NCBI RefSeq assembly: GCF_021190955.1
Contig: NZ_JAIOAO010000001.1
Coordinates: forward strand, 868,001 to 932,000
Direction: 5' to 3'
Source of the DNA: Parachryseolinea silvisoli
GTDB lineage: Bacteria > Bacteroidota > Bacteroidia > Cytophagales > Cyclobacteriaceae
Length of the DNA: 64,000 bases
In this document: piece after piece, positions 44,512 to 61,927 of the stretch
How the letters are laid out: the number at the start of each line of letters is the position of its first letter
Position numbering within the stretch: position 1 is the first letter of the stretch
Notes under the pieces: model-generated
What the model was told of the DNA's origin: nothing
Seen by the model: only the letters and a program-made list of their open reading frames with translations
Database searches by the model: none
Made by a program: the position numbers and the translations under genes

Positions 44512-46521
44512 TTAATTACTGAAACCCAATGTGGTAAAACCGTCCTGCACCTCAGGCGCCGACATAAACAAATCCCACAGCAACCCGGTGCGGTAATTTT
44601 CAATCATGACAATGATCGGCCCCTGGTCGATGGCCAGGTACGAGTCTGCGGTCCATCCTTGTGTCAGGTTAAAAGCATCGTAGAAACCGTAGTCACCCCA
44701 CAGGCGATCGCCGACAGTATAATAAAAGAATTTTAACGCCCGCATCGATTCCTCCGGTGTATAGGGGAATGACGACAAGGCCGCCGTAGGGCTGATCGTT
44801 CCGTTATCGTTGGACGGCGAATGCGCATCGTACCCACGCTGGCCATCATCACTCGACGTAAGCCCCCAGCATTCATCACTATAGCCTACGTAGCCGTTCG
44901 GGTTTGCCACGCAATAGGCGTAGTTGATTTTGGTAGCGTTCAGATTCTGCTGCCAGTAATCGGCGTAATCGTCCGAGAATTTCGGATCAAGACCGAGATA
45001 GGAATAGTGCACCCAAAACAACGGACTCGGTGGTCCCAGCGGAAGCAGATAGCCGTAGTGTGTCGTGGCGGTACGAATCGCACCATTACGTCCATAACCA
45101 TTGCTATAAACAGACTTGGGAATGCCGTGTGTGGGCGATGCTGCCGCCAGGAAGTAGGTGATCTGTTCTTCGAAGTAGCCGTACATAGCAAAGTTCATTT
45201 GCCAATCATAAGCCGGCGACCAATGCCAGTAGAGCACCTGCTCATTGTTCTTGCGGTACCAATCCCACTCAACGCCTTGCCACAGCGTAGTGATGCGGTT
45301 AATGAGATTGTTACCCGCGGTATCCGACGCCTGTAAATATTGCCGGAACGTAAGCAGACCCTGCACCAAAAACGAAGTTTCCACCAGGTCGCCGCCATCG
45401 TCCTTCTGACTGAACGGCACGACAGCGCCCGTGCTGCCATTGATCCAATGCGACCAGGCACCATGAAAACGATCGGCGTCTTCCAGGAAGGTTACGATCT
45501 TGTCCATCCGCTCGACACCTTCGCTGCGGGTAATAAAATTCCGTTCGACGCCGACGATCAGCGCCATGATGCCAAAACCTGAACCACCGCTTGTTACGAC
45601 ATCCCCCGAGGTATTACGCTCTCGCGCCAGGCCACTGACAGGATGGCCAAAGTCCCAGAAGTATTTAAAGGTTTGTTGTTGTACAAGTGTCAGCAGCGCA
45701 TCATCCGTGATAACCGAATGATCGGGCGTCTCATTACGCGCTGTATAAAAACTCTTGGTGAAATTCTGCAAAACTTCTCCCGCGACACCCTTCACATTGG
45801 AGTTAAGCGTTACTCCATAGCGCCGTAGGTCACCCAACTCGCCAGTAAGGGTAATAGTGACTTTCCGCTTGTCGTCCGACAGCACCAGGCTTGTCGGCGC
45901 AGTGCTACCCGCAGGGGTAGTCACAAAAATATTTTGCGATACGACAGTAGCACCATCTACCGGTTGGGAGAAGGCTACTTCGATCGTGGTCCCGGTCAAC
46001 GGGACCTCTGTAACACGCGGAATGGCCAGGACGTCTGTTCCGCCGATCTTTAAGGACGTAATGGTAATAGTTGCTCCCACCGTTGTGAACTCGACCAGGT
46101 GACCGGGAAAAACGTCACCGCTTGTGCCTCGCAATTCATCGGAGATCTTGAGCTGATAGATAGTGTTATTGGCCAAAGCAGATTCTGGTGTAAGGGCTAC
46201 CGTCTTGCCTCCATTGGAATACGCATAGGCTACAGGCACAACCTCACCCGAAGACTTTATTGCCAGGACAACAGCGTCATCGACGGTCGACTCGTCGAGC
46301 GCGACGCCAAAGGTCGCCAGCACGGGCTCGCTGACCGGCGCCGCCGTGTTTTTAGAGGCATCGGTTAAACTCAATACGTAACTGCCCACCTGCGCGGCGG
46401 TGAGCTGCAGGGTGCCGGGTTCGCCCGGATCCTTGTCGTCATCACCGCAGGATGAGAGCCCCCATCCTATTATTATTAAAAATACTGCCCACAACCGGGT
46501 ATTACGTTTTAAATCAATCAT
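44512..46521 (-). CDS. Surface lipoprotein with Ig-like domains and a GH144-type (PF10091) glucanase domain
   Basis: 669 residues from the ATG at 46521. Lipobox LSSC with Cys25 followed by GDDDKD, the acidic export signal for surface lipoproteins. Residues about 35-235 are Big_5-like Ig domains (GVALDESTVDDAVVL; TTIEVAFSQPVDG). The rest is an (alpha/alpha)6 domain: QQQTFKYFWDFGHPVSGLARER, GGSGFGIMALIVGVERNFI, NNGTISPTAALSSFPYTPEES, GDYGFYDAFNL and LAIDQGPIIVMIENYR. These are hallmarks of the glycoamylase-like family, whose characterised GH144 members are endo-beta-1,2-glucanases. It likely cuts the polymer at the cell surface for SusCD. A 101-base gap with a hairpin separates it from GH3. Confidence 0.9.
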   Translation of the reverse strand: MIDLKRNTRLWAVFLIIIGWGLSSCGDDDKDPGEPGTLQLTAAQVGSYVLSLTDASKNTAAPVSEPVLATFGVALDESTVDDAVVLAIKSSGEVVPVAYAYSNGGKTVALTPESALANNTIYQLKISDELRGTSGDVFPGHLVEFTTVGATITITSLKIGGTDVLAIPRVTEVPLTGTTIEVAFSQPVDGATVVSQNIFVTTPAGSTAPTSLVLSDDKRKVTITLTGELGDLRRYGVTLNSNVKGVAGEVLQNFTKSFYTARNETPDHSVITDDALLTLVQQQTFKYFWDFGHPVSGLARERNTSGDVVTSGGSGFGIMALIVGVERNFITRSEGVERMDKIVTFLEDADRFHGAWSHWINGSTGAVVPFSQKDDGGDLVETSFLVQGLLTFRQYLQASDTAGNNLINRITTLWQGVEWDWYRKNNEQVLYWHWSPAYDWQMNFAMYGYFEEQITYFLAAASPTHGIPKSVYSNGYGRNGAIRTATTHYGYLLPLGPPSPLFWVHYSYLGLDPKFSDDYADYWQQNLNATKINYAYCVANPNGYVGYSDECWGLTSSDDGQRGYDAHSPSNDNGTISPTAALSSFPYTPEESMRALKFFYYTVGDRLWGDYGFYDAFNLTQGWTADSYLAIDQGPIIVMIENYRTGLLWDLFMSAPEVQDGFTTLGFSN

Positions 46522-46540
46522 GATGATGCTTGGATTAAAA

Positions 46541-46577
46541 AAGGAAGGAAAGGTCTCCGGCAAGCCGGAAGACCTTT
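46541..46577 (-). terminator. Hairpin between the LamG lipoprotein and GH144 genes (weak terminator/attenuator)
   Basis: AAAGGTCTCCGGC (46549-46561) pairs with GCCGG-A-AGACCTTT (46564-46577) with one bulge and a very tight loop. On the minus strand a T-rich tract follows (CCTTCCTTTTTT). It lies 33 bases after the LamG stop and 28 before the GH144 start, so it could lower enzyme expression relative to susCD. Confidence 0.65.
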
Positions 46578-46610: not shown

Positions 46611-47834
46611 CTACGGTTTTTCCGAGTTATACATCACCTCAATTTCCTTCAGCGTGATGGCTTTGTTGTAGATCCGTACATCGTCCAGCAACCCTTTATA
46701 GTGTTGCGCATCGACGTTTTCGTAATTTCCATAGTCGAATGCAGTAGAAGATCTGTCATTGATAAAGCCAAAGGCAAGTTTTTGCCCCACGCCATCTTGC
46801 GTCTTAAACTTCATACCGGTAACATTGCGTTTTGCGTCGCCGTCGGGCCACTTGTTAAAGTCAAAGGTCTTTGCCAGCTCGCCGTTTACATAGGCCGCAC
46901 CAACTTTTGTAGCGGCCGTGTAGGTGAAGACCAGGTTTACCCATTTGCCATGCAATACGGCTGCCAGACCTTGTGCACCATAGTTTTTAGAGAACGTCCA
47001 TCCTTGCCAGCCCAGATTCCCTTTGCCGTCGATCCAGGTATCTTCGCCTCCCGTCATGCCACCGCCGAGATCATATTGTGCAGCCATCTTAGCATCTTTG
47101 GAATGCAGTTCGATCTGGAATCCGTTGGAAGCACCAAGGCCCAGCACAAAGTTTCCTCCTCCCGCACGCGCGGTTGTGTCAGGTTTAATCCAGAGGCTGA
47201 TCGAGAAGTTGGCAGTGTTGGTGAAGTCAGTACCATCCGGCACTTCCATAATACTCGTTGTACCGTTAAAGCTGGCTGCCTTACCGGCATTGGCATTCCG
47301 GCCGTCAACATAGGTAACTTCGACAGACGCATCGGCGTTGTGGTCACCCATTTCGTCGTTACCGTTATTTTCAAAACGCCAGTGTGCCAATGCACCATCA
47401 GGAGCAAAGGTACCCGTAGTTGTAAAAGTTCGCTCTACCGCACCGAATGCTACACCACTTGCAGACTTCAATCCCGCCCCTACACTCAGGAGATACTGAA
47501 CTCCGCCGCTCAATTCAGAAGAGGGCGCAATGGTCAGTGTTTTACCCGACACGTCGAAGCTCAGGGGAACTGCTACATCGTCAAATATACGCTTGAGTGT
47601 AATGTTAGACGAAGTTGCTGTGCTCTCGTCTACATCGGTATTAAACGTTACTACCAGGTCTGCATCTAGCGGTACCTCTGTAGCCGCCGTTGCTCCATTC
47701 AAATCTTTGGAGCCCGCCATGGCTGATGCGATGGTGAATGTGCTGGGGGAATCATCGTCATCACTGCAGCTGTAAAATACTGCTAAACCCGCCAGGCAGG
47801 CGAGCATCGCATAAAATTTAATCGTGTGTTTCAT
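46611..47834 (-). CDS. Surface lipoprotein with Ig-like and LamG/concanavalin-like domains (probable surface glycan-binding protein)
   Basis: A 407-residue lipoprotein: signal peptide, Cys23, then SDDDDSP, an acidic surface-export signal. Residues about 35-150 form a Big_5 Ig-like domain (DLVVTFNTDVDESTATSSNITLKRI region). Residues about 155-405 form a LamG-type jelly roll (LAHWRFENNGNDEMGDHNA, NFSISLWIKPDTTARAGG, KWVNLVFTYTAATKVGAAYVNG, LLDDVRIYNKAITLKEIEVMY). No glycosidase motif is apparent, so binding is the likely role. Its place directly after susD (48-base gap) is that of the extra surface glycan-binding protein of such loci. Confidence 0.88.
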   Translation of the reverse strand: MKHTIKFYAMLACLAGLAVFYSCSDDDDSPSTFTIASAMAGSKDLNGATAATEVPLDADLVVTFNTDVDESTATSSNITLKRIFDDVAVPLSFDVSGKTLTIAPSSELSGGVQYLLSVGAGLKSASGVAFGAVERTFTTTGTFAPDGALAHWRFENNGNDEMGDHNADASVEVTYVDGRNANAGKAASFNGTTSIMEVPDGTDFTNTANFSISLWIKPDTTARAGGGNFVLGLGASNGFQIELHSKDAKMAAQYDLGGGMTGGEDTWIDGKGNLGWQGWTFSKNYGAQGLAAVLHGKWVNLVFTYTAATKVGAAYVNGELAKTFDFNKWPDGDAKRNVTGMKFKTQDGVGQKLAFGFINDRSSTAFDYGNYENVDAQHYKGLLDDVRIYNKAITLKEIEVMYNSEKP

Positions 47835-47882: not shown

Positions 47883-49397
47883 TTACCAGTTGGGGTTGTT
47901 CAGCCAGCCGTTGAGGTCGGCTTCCGTTTGGGGTATCGCCAACAGGTTATGTTTGTCGGCACGATAGCCATAGGGTGCCAGCACGGTGGTGGCTTTATTG
48001 GTGCGGATCAGATCCCAAAAGCGCAAGCCTTCCAGCGCCAGTTCAACGCGACGCTCGTGCAGAATGATCTCGTTCAGCGCGTCTGTGTTGGTTTCGGTGA
48101 TATCGGGTAGTATCGCGGGATTTGTGCCGCGGGCACGGGCGCGTACCTCGTTGAGATAGTCGAGCGCGTCATCAGGCTTACCGTTTTTATTTAGTGCTTC
48201 GGCAGCCATCAGCAACACATCGGCATAGCGTACCAGGCGACGGTTATAGCCAAACTGCGCGGGCACGTTTGTCCCCGGCGTCCATACCTTTTGGTTATAA
48301 CATTCCTTTTCTCCAATGCCATTCGGGAAGCCCGGGTATACCAGGCTGTTGGTATAGGCATCCGGTGTATCGGTGTCACCCACGATCTTTATACCATCTT
48401 GCCACTCACCGACGTCGAGAACGGTAGAATCCAGTCGGGGGTCGCCGGGCTCGAACGAATTGATCAGGTCGAACGAAGGACGGTTGAAGCCCCAACCACG
48501 GTTGGGAATCCCACGTACGCCCTGTACGTTGCCATATTGATTGCCACCAATGGGCAAACCCTCCTGCCGTATTGAGCCTATTTCAAAGACAGACTCTACT
48601 CCCTGCTCACCGGCCTCGCTATGAGCTTCACCGAAAGACGCTGCCAGGTCATATTGATGCGAGTTGATCACCGCCAGGGCAGCCACTTCTGCCTGCGGAA
48701 AATTACCACGCCACAGATAGTACCGCGCGAGCAATGCGTTGGCGGTACCGACGGTCACGCGCCCAAGATCGTTGGCAGACCAGCGCTCATCATGTCGCTC
48801 CCACAGGTTGTCGCGGGCGAACGTAAGATCTTCTTCAATCAGTGTATAGATCTCCGATGCCGGCGAACGGGGCAATCCTAACGGCGCCACGACCGTTGTG
48901 ATCTTAGGCACGTCGCCCCAGGCACGCACCAGGTCCAGGTAAAAGAACCCGCGTAACAAACGCGCCTCTGCCAGGTAGCGTGTACGCAACGTCTCATCCA
49001 TCACAATGTTGGGCACGTTCTCGATCACGACGTTGGCGCGTTTGACGCCTTGATACAACGTCGAGTACCAATTCTTAATGGACGCCTCGGTGCCAACATG
49101 GGTAAAGTTGTCATAGGGACCGACTACGGCACGCTGATCGGTCAGGTTGCTGCCTTTATGAGCGTCATCCGACATGATGTCGAGAATGGGATATAATCCG
49201 AAACTATATTCGGGAACACGCAGCGTGTTGTAAATGGCATTGACAGCCTGCTCGGCATCCGATGCACTGGTCGGAAAATTCGAGGACACCAGTTTGCCTT
49301 GCGGTGGCTTGTCTAAAAAATCGCTGCAGCTAAACGGGATGGCTACCAGCAACAGGACCATTACGCGGTAGCACAGGGTTATTGTATTCTTTTTCAT
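47883..49397 (-). CDS. SusD/RagB-like surface lipoprotein (second locus)
   Basis: A 504-residue lipoprotein (Cys24 in AIPFSCSDFLDKPPQGK). The SusD helical fold shows ASDAEQAVNAIYNTLRVPEYS, LAEARLLRGFFYLDLVRAWGDVP, YADVLLMAAEALNKNGKP, EIILHERRVELALEGLRFWDLIR and the C-terminal LLAIPQTEADLNG. It pairs with the SusC encoded 13 bases upstream and should bind the glucan at the cell surface. The substrate is inferred from the GH144 and GH3 genes. Confidence 0.95.
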   Translation of the reverse strand: MKKNTITLCYRVMVLLLVAIPFSCSDFLDKPPQGKLVSSNFPTSASDAEQAVNAIYNTLRVPEYSFGLYPILDIMSDDAHKGSNLTDQRAVVGPYDNFTHVGTEASIKNWYSTLYQGVKRANVVIENVPNIVMDETLRTRYLAEARLLRGFFYLDLVRAWGDVPKITTVVAPLGLPRSPASEIYTLIEEDLTFARDNLWERHDERWSANDLGRVTVGTANALLARYYLWRGNFPQAEVAALAVINSHQYDLAASFGEAHSEAGEQGVESVFEIGSIRQEGLPIGGNQYGNVQGVRGIPNRGWGFNRPSFDLINSFEPGDPRLDSTVLDVGEWQDGIKIVGDTDTPDAYTNSLVYPGFPNGIGEKECYNQKVWTPGTNVPAQFGYNRRLVRYADVLLMAAEALNKNGKPDDALDYLNEVRARARGTNPAILPDITETNTDALNEIILHERRVELALEGLRFWDLIRTNKATTVLAPYGYRADKHNLLAIPQTEADLNGWLNNPNW

Positions 49398-49410: not shown

Positions 49411-52392
49411 TTAAAATGTCAGGTTCAAACCACAGGAATAAATGCTCACGACGGGGTACGTGCCGCGATCGACTTTGCTGTCGAGCGGGTTTTCATTGGC
49501 GATCTCCGGTGAGAAGCCCGTAAAGCTTTTTGCCGTAAAGACGTTGGTACCCCGTATATACACACGCGCGGCTTTTACTGCCAGACGGTCCGTGATAGAC
49601 CGCGGCACGGTATAGCCCAGCGTGACGTTACGCAGTCGGAAGAAGTTAGCACTTTGTACAAAGCGTGAAGACGGCAGGAAATTTACGCCACCTTCGGAAG
49701 GGCGCGGCTCACTGTTGCTAGTCCCTTCGCCACGCCAGTAATCCATGACGTGCGCTTCAAAATTATAAAGATCGGGACGCACCGTTTCTTTATAGTTCAT
49801 GATCTCGGCCCCCGACTCGCCTTGAAAATCAAGCGCGAAATCGAAGCCTTTGAAGTCTAAGCCAAGGCTGATGCCGTAGAGCATTGTCGGGATCGGCGAG
49901 CCGATGGATGTACGATCGCTATCGTCGATCTCATTGTCGCCATTGGTATTAACAAAGCGTACATCGCCTACACCGGCGTTATCCATGTGTGGATAGGCAT
50001 CGAGCTCACCTTGGTTTTGAAACACGCCGTCTACCTGGTAACCATAAAAGCTGCCAATGGGCTCGCCGACCACACTCCGGGTAATGGAGTTGGGCCCGAG
50101 CAGTTGTCCGGACACGCTCCCGCCCCCCTGAATCTTGAGCACTTCATTGTGAATAGTTGTGCCGACGGCCCCGATACGGTAGCCAAGCCCGTTGTCAAGC
50201 TTGCTTTCCCAACCGAGGTTAAATTCAAAGCCACGATTGAGAATCTCGCCGGCGTTAAACGTGATCTGCGCCCCGGAGCCGTTGCCCAGATAGCCCGGCA
50301 CTTCAAGGGGAATAAGAATGTCGGACGTCACACGGCGGTAATAATCGATCTCAACTTTCAAGCGGTTATTAAAAAAACCAGCTTCAATACCCGCATCCGT
50401 CTGCGTTGTCGTTTCCCATTTTAATTCAGGGTTACCCGTGATGCCATACGTGGCGCCGGAAAACAGGCGATCGCCCTGACCAAACACGGTATTCACCCCG
50501 TTGTCCACCAACGAGTATATTTTCAGGTATTCGATCTTTTCGTTGCCTGTCTTACCCCAGCTGGCACGCAGCTTCAGGTTGTCGAGGAACGTAACGTCTT
50601 GTAAAAAAGACTCTTCGATAATATTCCAACCGACGGCCACCGACGGAAAATCAGCATAGCGATTGGCCGTGGTAAACTTGGAAGAACCGTCGCGGCGGAA
50701 GGTAGCGGTAAAGAGGTATTTACCTTTATAGGTATAGTTAGCGCGGGCCAGGTACGATAGCATAGAATAGTTATACTTCGGATCTGCACCGTTCACATCC
50801 TTTTCGCTATCGATGATCGTAATGGAGCTGCCCTGGTTGAAATACCAGAAGTCCTCATCATCACGCAAGATGTTCTGCGACTGCAAGCGTAAAAACTCCG
50901 ATGTTGTGTTTTGCATCGTAAAGCCCACCAGGGCGTCGACGTGATGGTCACCGAAGTTTCTCTGAAAGTTCAGCGTGTTCTCCCACAGCACCGTGGCCTG
51001 ATCTTCGAATTTCTTTATCAACAGGTTTTGTGACCGTTGTTGTTGCGGCGATACAAAGAACACAGGGGTAAACGAACGGTTCTTAAAATACTTGGCATCT
51101 ACACCCAGGCTGGTGCGGAAGGTAAAGGCATTGTCTAGGAAGTTTACCTCACCAAACAAGTTACCGACGCCCCGGATACCGCGGTCCGCGTTGTTGGTAT
51201 ATTCGATGTCCGCCAGTGGGTTACCGACGTTCGGCACGGCATTAAAATTTCCGTCAGCATCACGCGGTGTCACGACCGGCAGCGCGCGGTAGGTCGCAAA
51301 GACGGCATTGCCACCGGTATTGGTTTGTTTATAGGGGGTGATGGTAAAGTTATTGCCAAAACGAACGTTCTTACTCAGATGGAAAGTGTTGTTCAGTTTG
51401 AGTGTGACGCGTTCATAAGCAGATTTCTCAACAATACCTTCTTGCTTAAAATATCCGAGGCCGATATAATATTGGATTTTAGGCGATGCGCCGGCGGCGG
51501 AAAATTGATAGTTCTGAATCGGTGCAGTATCAAAAATAAGATCCTGCCAGTCGGTATTCGGTACGGCATCGACGTTGTTATAAGATCCCGGCGCAAACTG
51601 ATTCACATACGTAGCAAAGTCACGGCCATTTAGCATGTCGATCTTGCTCTGCAATTGCTGCACGCTGTATTCAGCGGATAGACTTATGGTGGGATATTCC
51701 TGACCTTGGATACCGCGCTTGGTCGTGATGAGGATTACCCCATTAGCACCGCGTGCACCATAGATAGCCGTGGAAGAAGCATCTTTCAACACTTCCATTG
51801 ACTCGATGTCGGCCGCATTGAGAAAGTCGATGTCCTGAACAATAACACCATCCACCACGTAGATCGGCGACGAGTCGTTAAACGTACCCTGACCACGAAT
51901 CCGCACCACCGGAGCTGCTCCCGGTGCGCCTGTTGAGCTCGACACCTGCACACCGGCCACCTTACCCTGCAGCGCTTGCATAGGCGACACGGCGGGTACC
52001 TTGGTCAGGTCGGCTCCCCGTATCGACGACACCGAACCCGTGAGATCAGATTTCTTCACCACGCCATACCCGATCACAACCACATCGCTCAGCGTCGTAA
52101 AGTCGACTTCAAGCGCCACATTCACCACCGTCTGGGCGTCCAGCACAATAGACTGGGTCTTGTAGCCCACAAAAGTGAATGTCAATGTCGTTTCTTCGGA
52201 TCCTACCTCCAGAGAATAATTGCCGGATACGTCTGTCGCCGTACCCCGGCTGGTTCCCTGAACAAGAACATTCACACCGGGCAGTGGACTGCCATCGGTG
52301 GCATCCGTCACCTGGCCGGTAACGGTTCGGTTTTGCGCCCAGGCTGGCGCTGCTAACACACAGATAATCAACAGCGTAAGAATTCTTTGCAT
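49411..52392 (-). CDS. SusC/RagA-like TonB-dependent transporter (second locus)
   Basis: A 993-residue outer-membrane transporter. Signal peptide (ILTLLIICVLAAPAWA), regulatory-like domain (TVTGQVTDATDGSPLPGV), the segment SDVVVIGYGVVKKSDLTGS, plug with RIRGQGTFNDSSPIYVVDG and EVLKDASSTAIYGARGANG, then barrel strands and a terminal aromatic end (SIYSCGLNLTF). It imports the oligosaccharides cut by the surface GH144 (inference). A 318-base control region lies upstream. Confidence 0.95.
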   Translation of the reverse strand: MQRILTLLIICVLAAPAWAQNRTVTGQVTDATDGSPLPGVNVLVQGTSRGTATDVSGNYSLEVGSEETTLTFTFVGYKTQSIVLDAQTVVNVALEVDFTTLSDVVVIGYGVVKKSDLTGSVSSIRGADLTKVPAVSPMQALQGKVAGVQVSSSTGAPGAAPVVRIRGQGTFNDSSPIYVVDGVIVQDIDFLNAADIESMEVLKDASSTAIYGARGANGVILITTKRGIQGQEYPTISLSAEYSVQQLQSKIDMLNGRDFATYVNQFAPGSYNNVDAVPNTDWQDLIFDTAPIQNYQFSAAGASPKIQYYIGLGYFKQEGIVEKSAYERVTLKLNNTFHLSKNVRFGNNFTITPYKQTNTGGNAVFATYRALPVVTPRDADGNFNAVPNVGNPLADIEYTNNADRGIRGVGNLFGEVNFLDNAFTFRTSLGVDAKYFKNRSFTPVFFVSPQQQRSQNLLIKKFEDQATVLWENTLNFQRNFGDHHVDALVGFTMQNTTSEFLRLQSQNILRDDEDFWYFNQGSSITIIDSEKDVNGADPKYNYSMLSYLARANYTYKGKYLFTATFRRDGSSKFTTANRYADFPSVAVGWNIIEESFLQDVTFLDNLKLRASWGKTGNEKIEYLKIYSLVDNGVNTVFGQGDRLFSGATYGITGNPELKWETTTQTDAGIEAGFFNNRLKVEIDYYRRVTSDILIPLEVPGYLGNGSGAQITFNAGEILNRGFEFNLGWESKLDNGLGYRIGAVGTTIHNEVLKIQGGGSVSGQLLGPNSITRSVVGEPIGSFYGYQVDGVFQNQGELDAYPHMDNAGVGDVRFVNTNGDNEIDDSDRTSIGSPIPTMLYGISLGLDFKGFDFALDFQGESGAEIMNYKETVRPDLYNFEAHVMDYWRGEGTSNSEPRPSEGGVNFLPSSRFVQSANFFRLRNVTLGYTVPRSITDRLAVKAARVYIRGTNVFTAKSFTGFSPEIANENPLDSKVDRGTYPVVSIYSCGLNLTF

Positions 52393-52710
52393 ACTTCATT
52401 TCGCAAAACAGATGTTGGTCTTGGGGGCTGTTCGCGCTAGTGAAGTTTGCATTTGGCAAGAGAAACCAGGCATTATTTCGCCGAAATGCGCCTAAAACAA
52501 CGTTTTCGCAATCGGTTTATAGAGGGCCTTTTTTCCAGAAGAAAAACATTATTTCAAACGATTCCAGAAGGCTTTCGCACAACTGTCATGGGAGTTTTAC
52601 CGGATTAAAAACATCATAATAAAGTACTGGTGAAAACACCCCGAAACGTCAGTTTAACGTGTGACGAATGAAATGGAAATGGGAGGAAGTGAAATGGGAC
52701 TGTGACGAAG
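52393..52710. promoter_or_regulatory. Control region upstream of the second SusC gene
   Basis: 318 bases without a credible gene. Two short perfect dyads lie close together: ATTTCG-C-CGAAAT (52475-52487) and AAAAC-AAC-GTTTT (52494-52506), followed by GCAATCGGTTTA at 52508-52519, which keeps the left half of the hexuronate operator core. They are candidate binding sites for the regulator of this locus; the 7TM-DISM protein encoded just upstream is a possible reader (inference). No terminator was seen for that upstream gene. Confidence 0.45.
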
Positions 52711-54612
52711 TCACCCGACAGTTTTGGTAGTAGAAAGATGGAGGCGCTTATCCGCGGGCCCCTGGTCTATTATAACCTCCTCCCACCGCGAGGCATGCGG
52801 CCGACGGCCCCGGGCCTCAAGCTCCAGCAGCCGCTCAATTACTTTGTGTTTAAAGCCCCAAAGCGTATTCACGCGCAAGTCAAGTTGGGCCGCAAGCGCT
52901 TCTAACGTATAATCTTTGTTACCAACAACGGCCAGATAGGCGATGTAAAAGGCTTTTTCTACCGGGAACTTGATGCTGTGGAAAATGGTATAAGCCGTAA
53001 TGGATTCATTATAACCACAACGGGTGCAGCGCCGGGCAAACTTTTGACTACCATCAAAATACTTTTCATTACCACACTTACGGCAATGAAATCCCTCCTG
53101 CCACTTGAGGCTTTCCAGGAAACGGTAACACGCCAGGGTATCGGGATATAACGTCTGGAACTGCCGGTAATCCATGGTCTTCTCCAGGAGGCGCTCGTTC
53201 AACACCTCTTTTAAACTGTTCTTGAGCTTCCAGTTGTCAAGGTCCAACAGTGAGTTGATCTGGTTGATCTCGTACGACTGGCGTTCGACCTTGATGTTGG
53301 TCTCCTCCAGCAGTCGATTCTTTTCGTGCAACTCCAGGGTACGCTCGCGCACCTTCTCCTCCAGCTCGCGCGTAACCTTGTCTTTCAACTGCATGTTGAC
53401 TTCGTGCTGGTGAATGATCCGTCGCAGCGCACGGTCCCGCATATCTTTTAATATATGAATGCGGTCGCCCATGGCAAAAGTCAACAGCAGCATCTCTACC
53501 ACGAAACTGAAGTGCAAACTGTAATGCAGGGGCGTCGTAAAAGGCAATATGTTAAAGTAGACCAGCGCCCGGATAAAAAAGCCAAAGAATAAAATGCCAT
53601 ACGCCATGACAAAAAACCGGGCGGGGCGATAACCTTTGTTCCAGACCGCTATACCCGTATAAAAGATCAGCGACAACGGTATGATCTCGATATCACGATA
53701 GGTAAGCAGGTGCGGCAGAAACACGATTTCCACCACAAACCAAGCCGAGCGTAACCCGATCATCCACATCAGCCAGCGGTCAAGCCGGGGCGCATTAGCA
53801 CGCGTGCTCAAAAAACGCCGCGTAAAGACCAGACTCCACAATATCACGGAACACAATGTAACGCCCACCGCATAATCATTCCATTCGGGATGCGAGGGCC
53901 ACAGGTACTGAAACCCGACGCCGTCGTAGCTCATGGCGTAGGCGGCTACGCTAAGAATGTAGAGAATATAGTAGATGTTCTTGATCTCTTTGATGGCCAG
54001 GTATACCAGGAAGTTATACAAGCTGATAATGAGGATCATGCCATAAAACATGCCAAACAAGAAGTATTCGTTCAGCGCGTAGTATATAAATCGATCCGCC
54101 GAACGAACACCGATGCGCAGGTCGGCAAAGGCATGCGACTGCACCCGGAAATAATAATACATCATCGTGTCGGCCTTTATATCCAGCACGATCTCAAAGT
54201 TCTTGTGACGCAGCGGTCGCTGCCGGAAGGGTTGTTTGTCACCCATCACCACGTTTTGATACGACCCGTCCATCTGCGGCACATAGGCTTCGATGTAGTC
54301 GATAGTCTGATCGTAGAATTCCAGCATCCATACCTTCCGGCTATGGGCATAATGCCGGATCGGCAACCTGATCCAATACGAAGCATCGGGCACGAAGTCC
54401 TTGTTTTGATAGGCCGCGTGTTGTTGAAAGCGATTGGAGAAATTGTGCGCGGAGATTTGCCAGAATGAGATCGAGTTGGTGGCGTCGCGGTAAAACGTCA
54501 GCTCATACGGCATGAAGTTTCGCTCGGGTACGCTGTCATTCAGCACAAAGACCTCTTGCGCCGCCAGTCGCCCGGCAGCCAATACCAGTAGTAATCCCAG
54601 CACCCACCGCAT
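52711..54612 (-). CDS. 7TM-DISM membrane receptor fused to an IS1595-transposase-like zinc ribbon and helix-turn-helix
   Basis: 633 residues from the ATG at 54612; the longer frame overlaps the upstream gene and lacks a leader, while MRWVLGLLLVLAAG is a signal peptide. Residues about 20-165 match the 7TMR-DISMED2 ligand-binding domain (SYWIRLPIRH, WMLEFYDQTIDYIEAYVP). Seven membrane helices span about 180-383 (7TMR-DISM), then a long coiled coil (390-478). The end is unexpected: HCRKCGNEKYF...RRCTRCGYNES has C510, C513, C529 and C532 of a zinc ribbon. TAYTIFHSIKFPVEKAF and LEALAAQLDLRVNTLWGFKHKV follow, as in the N-terminal region of IS1595 transposases. The DDE nuclease domain is absent. It may be a one-protein membrane receptor and DNA-binding regulator of this locus (inference). 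It starts 11 bases after the GH144 gene. Confidence 0.87.
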   Translation of the reverse strand: MRWVLGLLLVLAAGRLAAQEVFVLNDSVPERNFMPYELTFYRDATNSISFWQISAHNFSNRFQQHAAYQNKDFVPDASYWIRLPIRHYAHSRKVWMLEFYDQTIDYIEAYVPQMDGSYQNVVMGDKQPFRQRPLRHKNFEIVLDIKADTMMYYYFRVQSHAFADLRIGVRSADRFIYYALNEYFLFGMFYGMILIISLYNFLVYLAIKEIKNIYYILYILSVAAYAMSYDGVGFQYLWPSHPEWNDYAVGVTLCSVILWSLVFTRRFLSTRANAPRLDRWLMWMIGLRSAWFVVEIVFLPHLLTYRDIEIIPLSLIFYTGIAVWNKGYRPARFFVMAYGILFFGFFIRALVYFNILPFTTPLHYSLHFSFVVEMLLLTFAMGDRIHILKDMRDRALRRIIHQHEVNMQLKDKVTRELEEKVRERTLELHEKNRLLEETNIKVERQSYEINQINSLLDLDNWKLKNSLKEVLNERLLEKTMDYRQFQTLYPDTLACYRFLESLKWQEGFHCRKCGNEKYFDGSQKFARRCTRCGYNESITAYTIFHSIKFPVEKAFYIAYLAVVGNKDYTLEALAAQLDLRVNTLWGFKHKVIERLLELEARGRRPHASRWEEVIIDQGPADKRLHLSTTKTVG

Positions 54613-54623
54613 TCTGTTGTTGT

Positions 54624-56000
54624 TTATTTTTCGTCTAACCAGCCACCGGCAAACCCGGCCTTCTTCAGGCCTGCCCGGATATAGGGACTCTTTTTCATGA
54701 CTTTCCACAAAAGCTCCGAGCGATAGTTTTCCAACTGCAATACGATCGGCCCCTGGTCAATGCCAAGATAGTCTTTATCAAACCACCCGGTAGTGCCGTT
54801 CTCATAAACAATGCTCAGGTTAAAAGCGTCTTTAAAGCCATATCGATCATATACCTTGACACCAAAACGTCGCTTCATGTGCTTCAATGCCGGTATACAG
54901 ATCTCGGGGGCGAACGCCAGTGAGCCACCGGCTGCCGTCGGCGCGATCGTGCCATCATCCTGCAGGTAAAACTGGGACGCGCCGCGCGCATGATAACCTT
55001 GAAACGCTACGTTGGGATTTTGTTTGCCCTCGTTACCCGGTCCGTCGCATGCCGTCAGGCCCCAGATGTTTTTATCATACCCCACAAACGCCGCGGCGTT
55101 GTTAACGCAATAAGCACGGTTTGCATACGTCGCACGCCTGGAGTTTTCAAAGTAATCGATGCCCTTCTCTCGCATATAAGCATCTTGTATGCCGCGAAAG
55201 TCAATATAAAGATGTGAATATTGGTGGCCGAACAGCGGACCGAAGTTTACAAACTCCTGGCCCTGGTATTTTGTCCATTGGTAGGTGTCGGTCCACGCCT
55301 TCCAGCTTTCGGAAGATATGGTATGCGTAGGCGATCCCAGCGCAAGGATGTACAGGATCATACCTTCATTGTATCCGCGCCAGGTGGCATCGATAAAACC
55401 ACGTTCAGGATGCCAGCCCATGCTCATGACCTTCTTGTCTTGCATCGCCCAGTCCCACTCTACGGCCCGGTACAGCGTATCGGCCAGTGCCCGTATATGC
55501 ACCTCCGTCGTATCGCTGCCATCAAAGTACGCCTGCGCAGAAAGGACGCCCGCCATCAGTAGCCCGGTATCAATGGTCGATAGTTCAACCTGTTGAAACC
55601 GCAGGCCCGTCTTCATATCGAGGAAGTGATAAAAGAACCCTTTGTGACCGGCCACACCTTGTGCGGCCTCACCTTTGGGAAGATGCTGCAAGAATCTCAA
55701 CGTGCGCAACGTGCGCTCCGCTGCCTGCACCCGCGTGATATACCCACGCTCGACACCTACGAGGTACGTTGACAAGCCAAAGCCGGTCGCAGCGATGCTC
55801 GAAAAGCTTTCGCTGGGCCACCGGTCCGGCAACTGACCATTCTCCGCATTCGCGGTCTCCCAGAAAAAGGAGAAGGTCTGCTGCGACAACGAATCGAGAA
55901 AAGGTGTTGCGGTAGTGTCACCGCCCGGCTGTTTCGGCACACATGCCCAGCATAGCGCCAGGAATAGCCATACGGCGGCCGTTCTTCGAAATAAGGTCAT
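54624..56000 (-). CDS. GH144-type endo-beta-1,2-glucanase (PF10091 family)
   Basis: A 458-residue exported enzyme, probably a lipoprotein (Cys20, ALCWACVPKQPGG, though the lipobox is not canonical). The (alpha/alpha)6 catalytic domain fills the rest: LSQQTFSFFWETANAENG, GFGLSTYLVGVERGYIT, GFFYHFLDMKTG, GWHPERGF, DGTIAPTAAGGSLAFAPEI, RYGFKDAFNLS and YLGIDQGPIVLQLENYR. Acidic residues of the GFFYHFLD region and the conserved Glu of STIDTGLL-type helices line the active cleft in this fold. It is nearer in length to the characterised single-domain GH144 enzymes than the surface homologue at 44512-46521. Co-transcribed with the 7TM-DISM receptor gene. Confidence 0.9.
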   Translation of the reverse strand: MTLFRRTAAVWLFLALCWACVPKQPGGDTTATPFLDSLSQQTFSFFWETANAENGQLPDRWPSESFSSIAATGFGLSTYLVGVERGYITRVQAAERTLRTLRFLQHLPKGEAAQGVAGHKGFFYHFLDMKTGLRFQQVELSTIDTGLLMAGVLSAQAYFDGSDTTEVHIRALADTLYRAVEWDWAMQDKKVMSMGWHPERGFIDATWRGYNEGMILYILALGSPTHTISSESWKAWTDTYQWTKYQGQEFVNFGPLFGHQYSHLYIDFRGIQDAYMREKGIDYFENSRRATYANRAYCVNNAAAFVGYDKNIWGLTACDGPGNEGKQNPNVAFQGYHARGASQFYLQDDGTIAPTAAGGSLAFAPEICIPALKHMKRRFGVKVYDRYGFKDAFNLSIVYENGTTGWFDKDYLGIDQGPIVLQLENYRSELLWKVMKKSPYIRAGLKKAGFAGGWLDEK

Positions 56001-60901: not shown

Positions 60902-61927
60902 TTAACGTTCTTCTTCTAAGGAATTGGCCGTCAGCACGGTATTACGGATCACCTCATCCAGCTTCTGTGCGGTGGCTTCCAGCATGGAAATGATGCGGAT
61001 GTTTTCTTCGCTTAACGTAGATTTTTCGATGATGCTGGTCAGACCAAGAATGGTCGCCACCGGCTGCCGCGTATAGTGCGATTGCACCCAGGAAATATGT
61101 TTCAATAGCTCGTTCTGCCGCTCGATCTGCAGCAAGTGGCGCTGGCGCTCGTCTATGTCCGTAACGGTAATGGTCGCACCAATGATCTGCTCCTGATAAA
61201 ATACCGGGCCGTATTCGGCGCGTAGCCATCGCGATGTTTCGGGGAACTGCACCTTGCGTTCGGTGACCACCGACTCGCCTGCCAGCGCCCGATCAAAGTC
61301 GCTTTTAAAAGCATCGAACAGGTAACGGCCCGCTACCCGTGTGTCGTGCAGCGTATAGTCGAGTATATTCATCCCGGTCTTCAGCTCACGTGCATACAAG
61401 GCCTGGCTTTCATCGCCCGCCTTTTTGTTGAAGAATAAGATGCTATAGTCGGGGGCCACCAGGATGACGGTGGACTGTGTACTATCCAGTACGGCTTGCA
61501 GGATCTGCCGCGACAATACCAACTCTTTATGAATGGCCTGGAGCTCGGTCACTTGCTTGTTGACTTCTCCTTCCAGGCTTTTTTTCTGATCCGTGACGTA
61601 CGCCAGCAAATCGTTCTTGTAAATGAGGCCCGTCAGGTTGCCATCGTCCATGACGGCCAGCACGTCGGTATGCGTTTCCTGCATCACCCGCAACGCCTCT
61701 TCTATCGCACACTCCGGCGACACCGTGGGGCGTGCAGTGAGGCAATCAATTACTAGCGTGTGCGAGTGCTGTACGACGTCCTGGGGTGTAAGGACACCGA
61801 TGGGTTGTTCGTTTTCATCCTGCACAACCAACGCGGACTGTTGCACCAGGTGGTCTTTGATCGACCGTGTTCCACTGTAGGCGGGAACCACGTCGTACTG
61901 ATGCCGGATGAAACGGGTGATAGTCAT
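60902..61927 (-). CDS. CBS-PAS signalling protein ending in a histidine-kinase dimerization helix, no ATPase domain
   Basis: A 341-residue cytoplasmic protein. Two CBS motifs (about 20-115: ALVVQDENEQPIGVLTPQDV and TDVLAVMDDGNLTGLIYKND) probably bind a nucleotide such as AMP, ATP or NAD. A coiled coil (118-142) leads to a PAS domain (about 143-260: LDSTQSTVILVAPDYSILFF, with a C-terminal ATITVTDIDE). The last 70 residues look like a HisKA dimerization helix: LLKHISWVQSHYTRQPVATI with H284 at the phospho-acceptor place and an R-x-P. The frame then stops after VLTANSLEEER, without HATPase. It may be a phosphotransfer or adaptor protein. Its start shares a base with the stop of the upstream gene. 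Confidence 0.85.
   Translation of the reverse strand: MTITRFIRHQYDVVPAYSGTRSIKDHLVQQSALVVQDENEQPIGVLTPQDVVQHSHTLVIDCLTARPTVSPECAIEEALRVMQETHTDVLAVMDDGNLTGLIYKNDLLAYVTDQKKSLEGEVNKQVTELQAIHKELVLSRQILQAVLDSTQSTVILVAPDYSILFFNKKAGDESQALYARELKTGMNILDYTLHDTRVAGRYLFDAFKSDFDRALAGESVVTERKVQFPETSRWLRAEYGPVFYQEQIIGATITVTDIDERQRHLLQIERQNELLKHISWVQSHYTRQPVATILGLTSIIEKSTLSEENIRIISMLEATAQKLDEVIRNTVLTANSLEEER

Follow-up and report, generated by a model that had tools for sequence, protein, structure and literature searches.

A 7TMR-DISM receptor fused to an IS1595 transposase-type module as a putative membrane-anchored regulator of a SusCD locus in Parachryseolinea silvisoli

A receptor joined to a transposase-type module

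We analysed a stretch of 64,000 bp from Parachryseolinea silvisoli (contig NZ_JAIOAO010000001.1, positions 868,001 to 932,000; hereafter the window), in which one gene encodes a membrane receptor of the 7TMR-DISM type joined to a C-terminal module resembling part of a transposase of the insertion sequence (IS) family IS1595. As a sequence-only reading of the window had stated, the gene stands between an enzyme gene of Pfam family PF10091, which we take to be glycoside hydrolase (GH) family 144, 11 bp upstream, and a SusCD locus, whose susC gene follows 318 bp downstream. The open reading frame (ORF) is intact from its ATG at 54612 to its stop at 52711. Its parts, located by Pfam, AlphaFold2 (AF2) models and fold search, are:

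52711..54612, minus strand: fusion ORF of 633 amino acids (aa), comprising DISMED2, 7TM-DISM, long helix, IS1595-type zinc ribbon and helix-turn-helix (HTH) (ORF call, Pfam, AF2 model)
54127..54501, minus strand: DISMED2 sensor domain, residues 38-162 (Pfam 7TMR-DISMED2 PF07696, E 4e-25)
53461..54069, minus strand: 7TMR-DISM seven-helix region, residues 182-384 (Pfam 7TMR-DISM_7TM PF07695, E 3e-46)
53200..53460, minus strand: long cytoplasmic helix, residues 385-471, an unbroken extension of the last membrane helix (AF2 model)
53011..53133, minus strand: IS1595-type zinc ribbon, residues 494-534, with C510, C513, C529 and C532 (Pfam PF12760)
52813..52962, minus strand: three-helix HTH, residues 551-600 (AF2 models, fold search)

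With a PF07696 ectodomain on a PF07695 core the protein is a 7TMR-DISM receptor, in line with the ectodomain and seven membrane helices proposed earlier. In the full-length AF2 model that had been called for (predicted local distance difference test, pLDDT, 83; predicted template modelling score 0.60) the ectodomain is rich in beta structure and is followed by seven long helices, of which the last reaches residue 471, and by the zinc ribbon and the three-helix HTH; the model's top Foldseek match is the periplasmic domain of RetS, 3jyb (E 4e-5). A coiled coil had also been proposed: the long helix is present in the model, while its pairing goes beyond it, residues 385-471 probably forming a signalling coiled coil. 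Modelled separately, the C-terminal part again gives a zinc ribbon and an HTH (pLDDT 86). A search with the IS1595 zinc ribbon profile PF12760, also suggested earlier, scores 32.8 bits at residues 494-534 (cut-off 25.4), the four cysteines of the predicted CxxC...CxxC ribbon are invariant among 54 aligned sequences (that of the window counted in), and the HTH is largely near invariant across the aligned fusions. The NCBIfam IS1595 model NF033547 covers residues 548-594 alone, with 18.9 bits against a cut-off of 75. Matches of the C-terminal model to Protein Data Bank (PDB) folds are weak; most are to HTH proteins and NudC zinc ribbons, the former at roughly residues 76-148. A PDB sequence search gave no match below E 0.065. 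As the earlier reading had noted, the DDE nuclease domain (ISXO2-like, PF12762) is absent from the fusion protein in Pfam and NCBIfam scans. Sensor and putative DNA-binding domain thus share one chain without kinase or receiver, i.e. a one-component layout. A Pfam scan of the window's fusion found no Reg_prop/Y_Y_Y, histidine kinase, receiver or AraC HTH domains, which sets it apart from hybrid two-component system (HTCS) regulators.

The named-genome scan yielded 567 relatives, and locus-level figures rest on the best 80 of these. In 77 of the best 80 named loci an ORF scores above 500 bits against the full-length family profile, the exceptions being L116, L124 and L138, the first two of which are cut by a contig end. 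A chance fusion, a misassembly or a pseudogene is ruled out by this recurrence of the same architecture.

A paired motif upstream of susC

The region 52393-52710 between the fusion and susC had been suggested as the target of the regulator. It holds the following conserved elements:

52595..52614, minus strand: distal motif copy, candidate operator (de novo motif, genome pattern search)
52530..52562, minus strand: proximal motif copy with conserved left extension, candidate operator (de novo motif, genome pattern search)
52442..52477, minus strand: conserved promoter-like TTG block, 54 bp after the proximal copy (motif search)

A 32-bp motif was found de novo in 66 gaps (that of the window and 65 named ones) with a log-likelihood (LL) of 790, against 144-165 in five shuffled sets searched with half as many starts. 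At least one site of 10 bits is present in 58 of the 66 gaps and two such sites in 42. Among the 53 gaps with a best site of at least 15 bits, 45 have the second-best site 64-66 bp away, compared to a mean of 1.7 and a maximum of 6 in 200 trials with shuffled flanks; single-letter shuffles were used here and in the controls for the TTG block and the variant motif described below, the real searches for the latter two having more starts than their controls. The motif occurs upstream of susC in one orientation. Allowing at most one mismatch, ATGTTTTTNNTCYGGNAAAA matches the 7,945,725-bp genome twice, at window positions 52530-52549 and 52595-52614, and its reversed control not at all. A looser pattern gave 46 matches in 59 genomes, several of them fusion-susC gaps, versus 36 for the reversed control, and is therefore not specific by itself. 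The TTG block follows the proximal site by 53-55 bp in 37 of the 42 gaps above 10 bits (51 examined; LL 377 versus 111-117). A sigma-70 scan of 52350-52760 returned no promoter or terminator, the promoter type of this phylum lying outside that scan.

Related motifs accompany more distant fusions. Seven fusions about 50% identical to that of the window have a variant motif (LL 82.6 versus 47-50), with a second-best copy 64-65 bp away in all seven (3.4-17.1 bits; 3.4 and 3.5 in two). Group-wise de novo searches, from which the f13 group (three gaps) was left out, gave a weak motif in the L132-L142 group and none in the f19 group. A hand-made core model reached p < 0.05 in 12 of 24 gaps of other fusions (one duplicate gap counted twice) versus 1 of 17 control SusC upstreams; identical gaps are L184/L083, L186/L103, L205/L121 and L209/L132, all four of which enter twice in the SusC-upstream survey described below.

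Should the fusion bind this pair, activation of the susC region would be more likely than repression. Both sites precede the TTG block by a fixed and sizeable distance, which suits activation, and extracytoplasmic function (ECF) sigma factors, which activate, can occupy the fusion's place: among seven of the nine fusion-less GH144 loci (L251 and L252 were left out of this check), L243 and L249 carry an ECF sigma factor with FecR at that position and L250 a FecR, with no evident regulator among the genes tested in L244, L245, L247 and L253. A repressor that sits on both sites without ligand and is released upon sugar would also fit the 65-bp spacing, through DNA looping, but for these two reasons we consider it unlikely.

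The pair could also belong to another regulator, or act in the susC transcript as an RNA leader, with the fusion as a bystander; a motif in the susC 5' region in a single orientation would agree with this. One further point speaks for this reading and against our preferred assignment of the pair to the fusion. A pair of at least 25 bits is found in just 40 of 62 SusC upstreams beside a fusion (GH144 loci, duplicates removed), so that the pair as modelled is missing from about a third of them. However, the pair is absent upstream of all 11 SusC genes in the nine fusion-less GH144 loci (best pair 2.9 bits), even in L245 and L251, whose SusC proteins are 60% and 57% identical to that of the window, whereas strong sites are kept beside the fusion in L067, L069, L083, L087 and L119, where SusC identity is just 35-39%. 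In L067 a further ORF lies between the fusion and susC, and here it is beside susC that the sites are found (L067 and L255 are one locus, filed as 'no fusion' in the SusC-upstream survey because the fusion is more than 1.5 kb away). Moreover, Rfam gives no match in 52300-52800 at E up to 1, the promoter-like block stands between motif and susC, and the motif is unique in the genome, unlike the site of a global regulator. A bystander role is thus improbable, and in these comparisons the motif pair is seen to track the fusion rather than SusC, as the earlier choice of target region would have it, though the link is imperfect.

Origin of the module

To place the module among transposases we used a quick, midpoint-rooted tree (78 rows, 118 columns; 52 of 108 receptor fusions after thinning). 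The 52 receptor fusions, both beta-propeller fusions included in the tree and L172 form one group (SH-aLRT branch support 85) adjoining transposases, of which L043, L045, L047-L049, L173, L176, L178 and L179 are the nearest. The IS1595 DDE domain was present in all five short relatives scanned (L043, L045, L047-L049). A single clade of all fusions is not rejected (approximately unbiased test, p 0.41). As judged from the profile match and from this placement next to real transposases, the fusion's C-terminus is homologous to the N-termini of IS1595 transposases, as first proposed. An ungapped search of seven loci did not delimit terminal inverted repeats for the IS copies nearest to the fusions. 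L172 (1197-1607, minus strand), whose genome belongs to a different class of the phylum, encodes the module on its own, as a protein of 137 aa with zinc ribbon and HTH but no DDE domain.

In a comparison with L064 (Dawidia soli), the ratio of non-synonymous to synonymous substitutions (dN/dS) is lowest of five regions in the zinc ribbon-HTH part, at about 0.006, a rough figure because dS is saturated (2.5); the ectodomain gives 0.052, the seven-helix region 0.033, the long helix 0.043 and the tail 0.166. These values come from this one pair, two others being saturated.

Descent could in principle have run the other way, IS1595-type transposases having acquired the module from a regulator, and a quick midpoint-rooted tree of 118 columns leaves some room for this. 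Yet two transposase groups fall outside the fusion group, and the titles of the best 80 of the 567 loci all name the window's phylum or its groups (the genome surveys likewise cover that phylum), so that we hold a reversed descent to be very improbable. That the tail has ceased to bind DNA and become a protein-protein adaptor, as zinc ribbons often are, is hardly credible given the near-invariant zinc ligands and much of the HTH, the dN/dS of about 0.006 and the related motifs beside distant fusions.

Neighbourhood, distribution and other sensors

The remaining genes of the locus, assigned by Pfam, are:

54624..56000, minus strand: PF10091 enzyme (GH144-type), separated by 11 bp from the fusion ORF that follows it
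49411..52392, minus strand: susC homologue, predicted target, 318 bp after the fusion ORF
47883..49397, minus strand: susD homologue
46611..47834, minus strand: Big_5 / Laminin_G_3 protein, putative surface lipoprotein
44512..46563, minus strand: enzyme with Big_5 and PF10091 (GH144-type)

The fusion's place beside susC/susD and enzymes is that of a regulator of a polysaccharide utilisation locus. In 65 of the 80 named loci a susC gene stands on the same strand, 105-535 bp downstream; of the 78 with a whole or partial fusion, some cut by contig ends, 65 hold the SusC cluster, 59 SusD, 62 a mixed GH144/surface-protein cluster and 40 GH3. Among 60 further fusion stretches, picked for variety, susC follows within 900 bp on the same strand in 22, four of which repeat named loci. 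Eighteen neighbour proteins from the varied stretches were scanned: ten are carbohydrate-related (GH5, GH9, GH10, GH18, GH30, GH81, alginate lyase, carbohydrate-binding module CBM96/PA14, sulfatase, PfkB), six unrelated (PriA, patatin, an efflux protein, DUF2339, a kinase, an M3 peptidase) and two without match. The expected adjacency to SusCD therefore stands in part: the fusion is linked to carbohydrate loci, SusCD loci among them though not in every case.

A second full-length copy in the same genome, 35% identical, lies directly upstream of susC and susD. Some 18 kb from it is a third PF10091 match (G000:C10:87091-87720), which, like similar places in relatives, falls in a frame of about 2,900 aa; as cyclic beta-1,2-glucan synthases are of this size, the cell may also make cyclic beta-1,2-glucan. 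Elsewhere in the window (60902-61927, minus strand) a 341-aa ORF resembles, by eye, a sensor kinase that ends after the phosphoacceptor helix region.

Of 59 genomes, 30 have a whole-protein match at E <= 1e-40, and none of the seven genomes of the genus, that of the window counted in, is missing from these 30; the C-termini of weaker matches look kinase- or phosphatase-like, and the window's genome has two 7TMR-DISM relatives with C-termini resembling histidine kinases (both by eye). Module matches at E <= 1e-20 were found in 83 of 241 genomes of the order, some in short, transposase-like frames, the frame length being mostly 600-740 aa among the matches listed; G436 has 12, ten of them in frames of at least 615 aa, and G529 has 17, mostly short and transposase-like. 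For the class, 67 of 295 genomes have a match at E <= 1e-8, mostly in transposase-looking frames of about 300 aa, and for the phylum 12 of 198 at E <= 1e-20. Named hosts among the best 80 of 567 loci include Dawidia soli, Ohtaekwangia koreensis, Chryseolinea, Fulvivirga and Algoriphagus. G690 holds twenty frames with a close module, about 300-340 aa in length, and G529 has many near-identical short module frames (154-190 aa); both are probably recent IS bursts.

The module also occurs on other sensors. In L198 and L199 it is attached to Reg_prop beta-propellers with Y_Y_Y, L198 lying directly upstream of susC/susD. Two more propeller fusions, L269 and L270, both come from the genome that holds L199 (G415); PF12760 stays below its cut-off in L270 and is absent from the matches listed for L269, and our own profile scores 120 and 140 bits. 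The host of these three is uncertain because the genome is rated 7% contaminated and seven sampled members of its family lack the module. L267 (6110-6817, minus strand) and L268 (5901-6608, plus strand) encode proteins of 236 aa that end in the module and, judged by eye, have a single hydrophobic segment; L267 is divergent to a GH18/GH19 chitinase. By these domain assignments the IS1595-type module is portable, between 7TM-DISM, beta-propeller and one-helix membrane proteins, and the window's fusion is not one odd protein but a member of a large family with swapped sensors.

Proposed mechanism

At the level of sequence, the domains, conservation, synteny, the site pair and its association with the fusion are established. 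Together they make it highly probable that the fusion regulates transcription as a one-component protein anchored in the membrane, probably by activation, with a DNA-binding domain domesticated from an IS1595 transposase; the same proposal in the sequence-only reading survives the tests of homology, locus link and motif pair. The periplasmic DISMED2 domain would sense a product of beta-1,2-glucan breakdown, and a dimer would receive this signal through the 7TM core and long cytoplasmic helix. Its zinc ribbon and HTH, formerly the DNA-binding half of the transposase, would then bind the tandem pair of sites, spaced by 65 bp, in front of susC and, from the fixed distance of these sites above a promoter, most likely activate the SusCD/GH144 operon. 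With somewhat less assurance, we favour a single domestication of the IS1595 DNA-binding half that gave rise to widespread Cytophagales membrane sugar sensors reading DNA directly, whose module later passed between 7TM-DISM, beta-propeller and one-helix sensors, recognises related tandem operators and replaces ECF sigma/FecR at the same loci.

If true, a transposase-derived DNA-binding domain would join the known outputs of bacterial membrane receptors, and a bacterial counterpart would be added to the transposon-to-transcription-factor route best known from eukaryotes. It would also point to a way in which many Cytophagales regulate sugar uptake, and would name an operator open to direct test.

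Comparison with known systems

IS1595-family transposases (PF12760 and PF12762) have the homologous zinc ribbon and HTH in common with the fusion, which differs in lacking the DDE nuclease, in its conserved locus and in being joined to a receptor. Other 7TMR-DISM receptors share the DISMED2 domain and 7TM core; their outputs are kinases, cyclases or phosphatases, whereas that of the fusion would be a DNA-binding module. Background on 7TMR-DISM proteins is given in PMC1592074. ECF sigma/FecR pairs, which take the fusion's position at two fusion-less GH144 loci (FecR alone at a third), are two proteins with a sigma-based mechanism, unlike the one-chain fusion. In HTCS regulators of polysaccharide loci, a histidine kinase, a receiver and an AraC HTH follow a Reg_prop/Y_Y_Y sensor. 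These and other regulators with Reg_prop/Y_Y_Y occupy the same susC/susD-adjacent position, and L198, L199, L269 and L270 share their sensors; the output of the fusion is an IS1595-type module, not kinase-receiver-AraC or LuxR. The earlier reading knew of no characterised protein of this kind. As far as the receptor with an IS1595-type module is concerned, this agrees with the literature searched (mostly without subscription papers or bioRxiv preprints), in which the combination is not described. One qualification concerns the ChiS family, to our knowledge and from the part of its literature seen the nearest described functional analogue, for which 7TMR-DISM proteins with a C-terminal DNA-binding domain are already on record. 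According to the portion of the ChiS work consulted, that domain is an HTH variant reported from proteobacterial genomes and is carried by diverse sensors, 7TMR-DISM among them (PMC8092284); set beside the fusion by this description, ChiS-family membrane regulators share with it a C-terminal DNA-binding domain, including on a 7TMR-DISM receptor.
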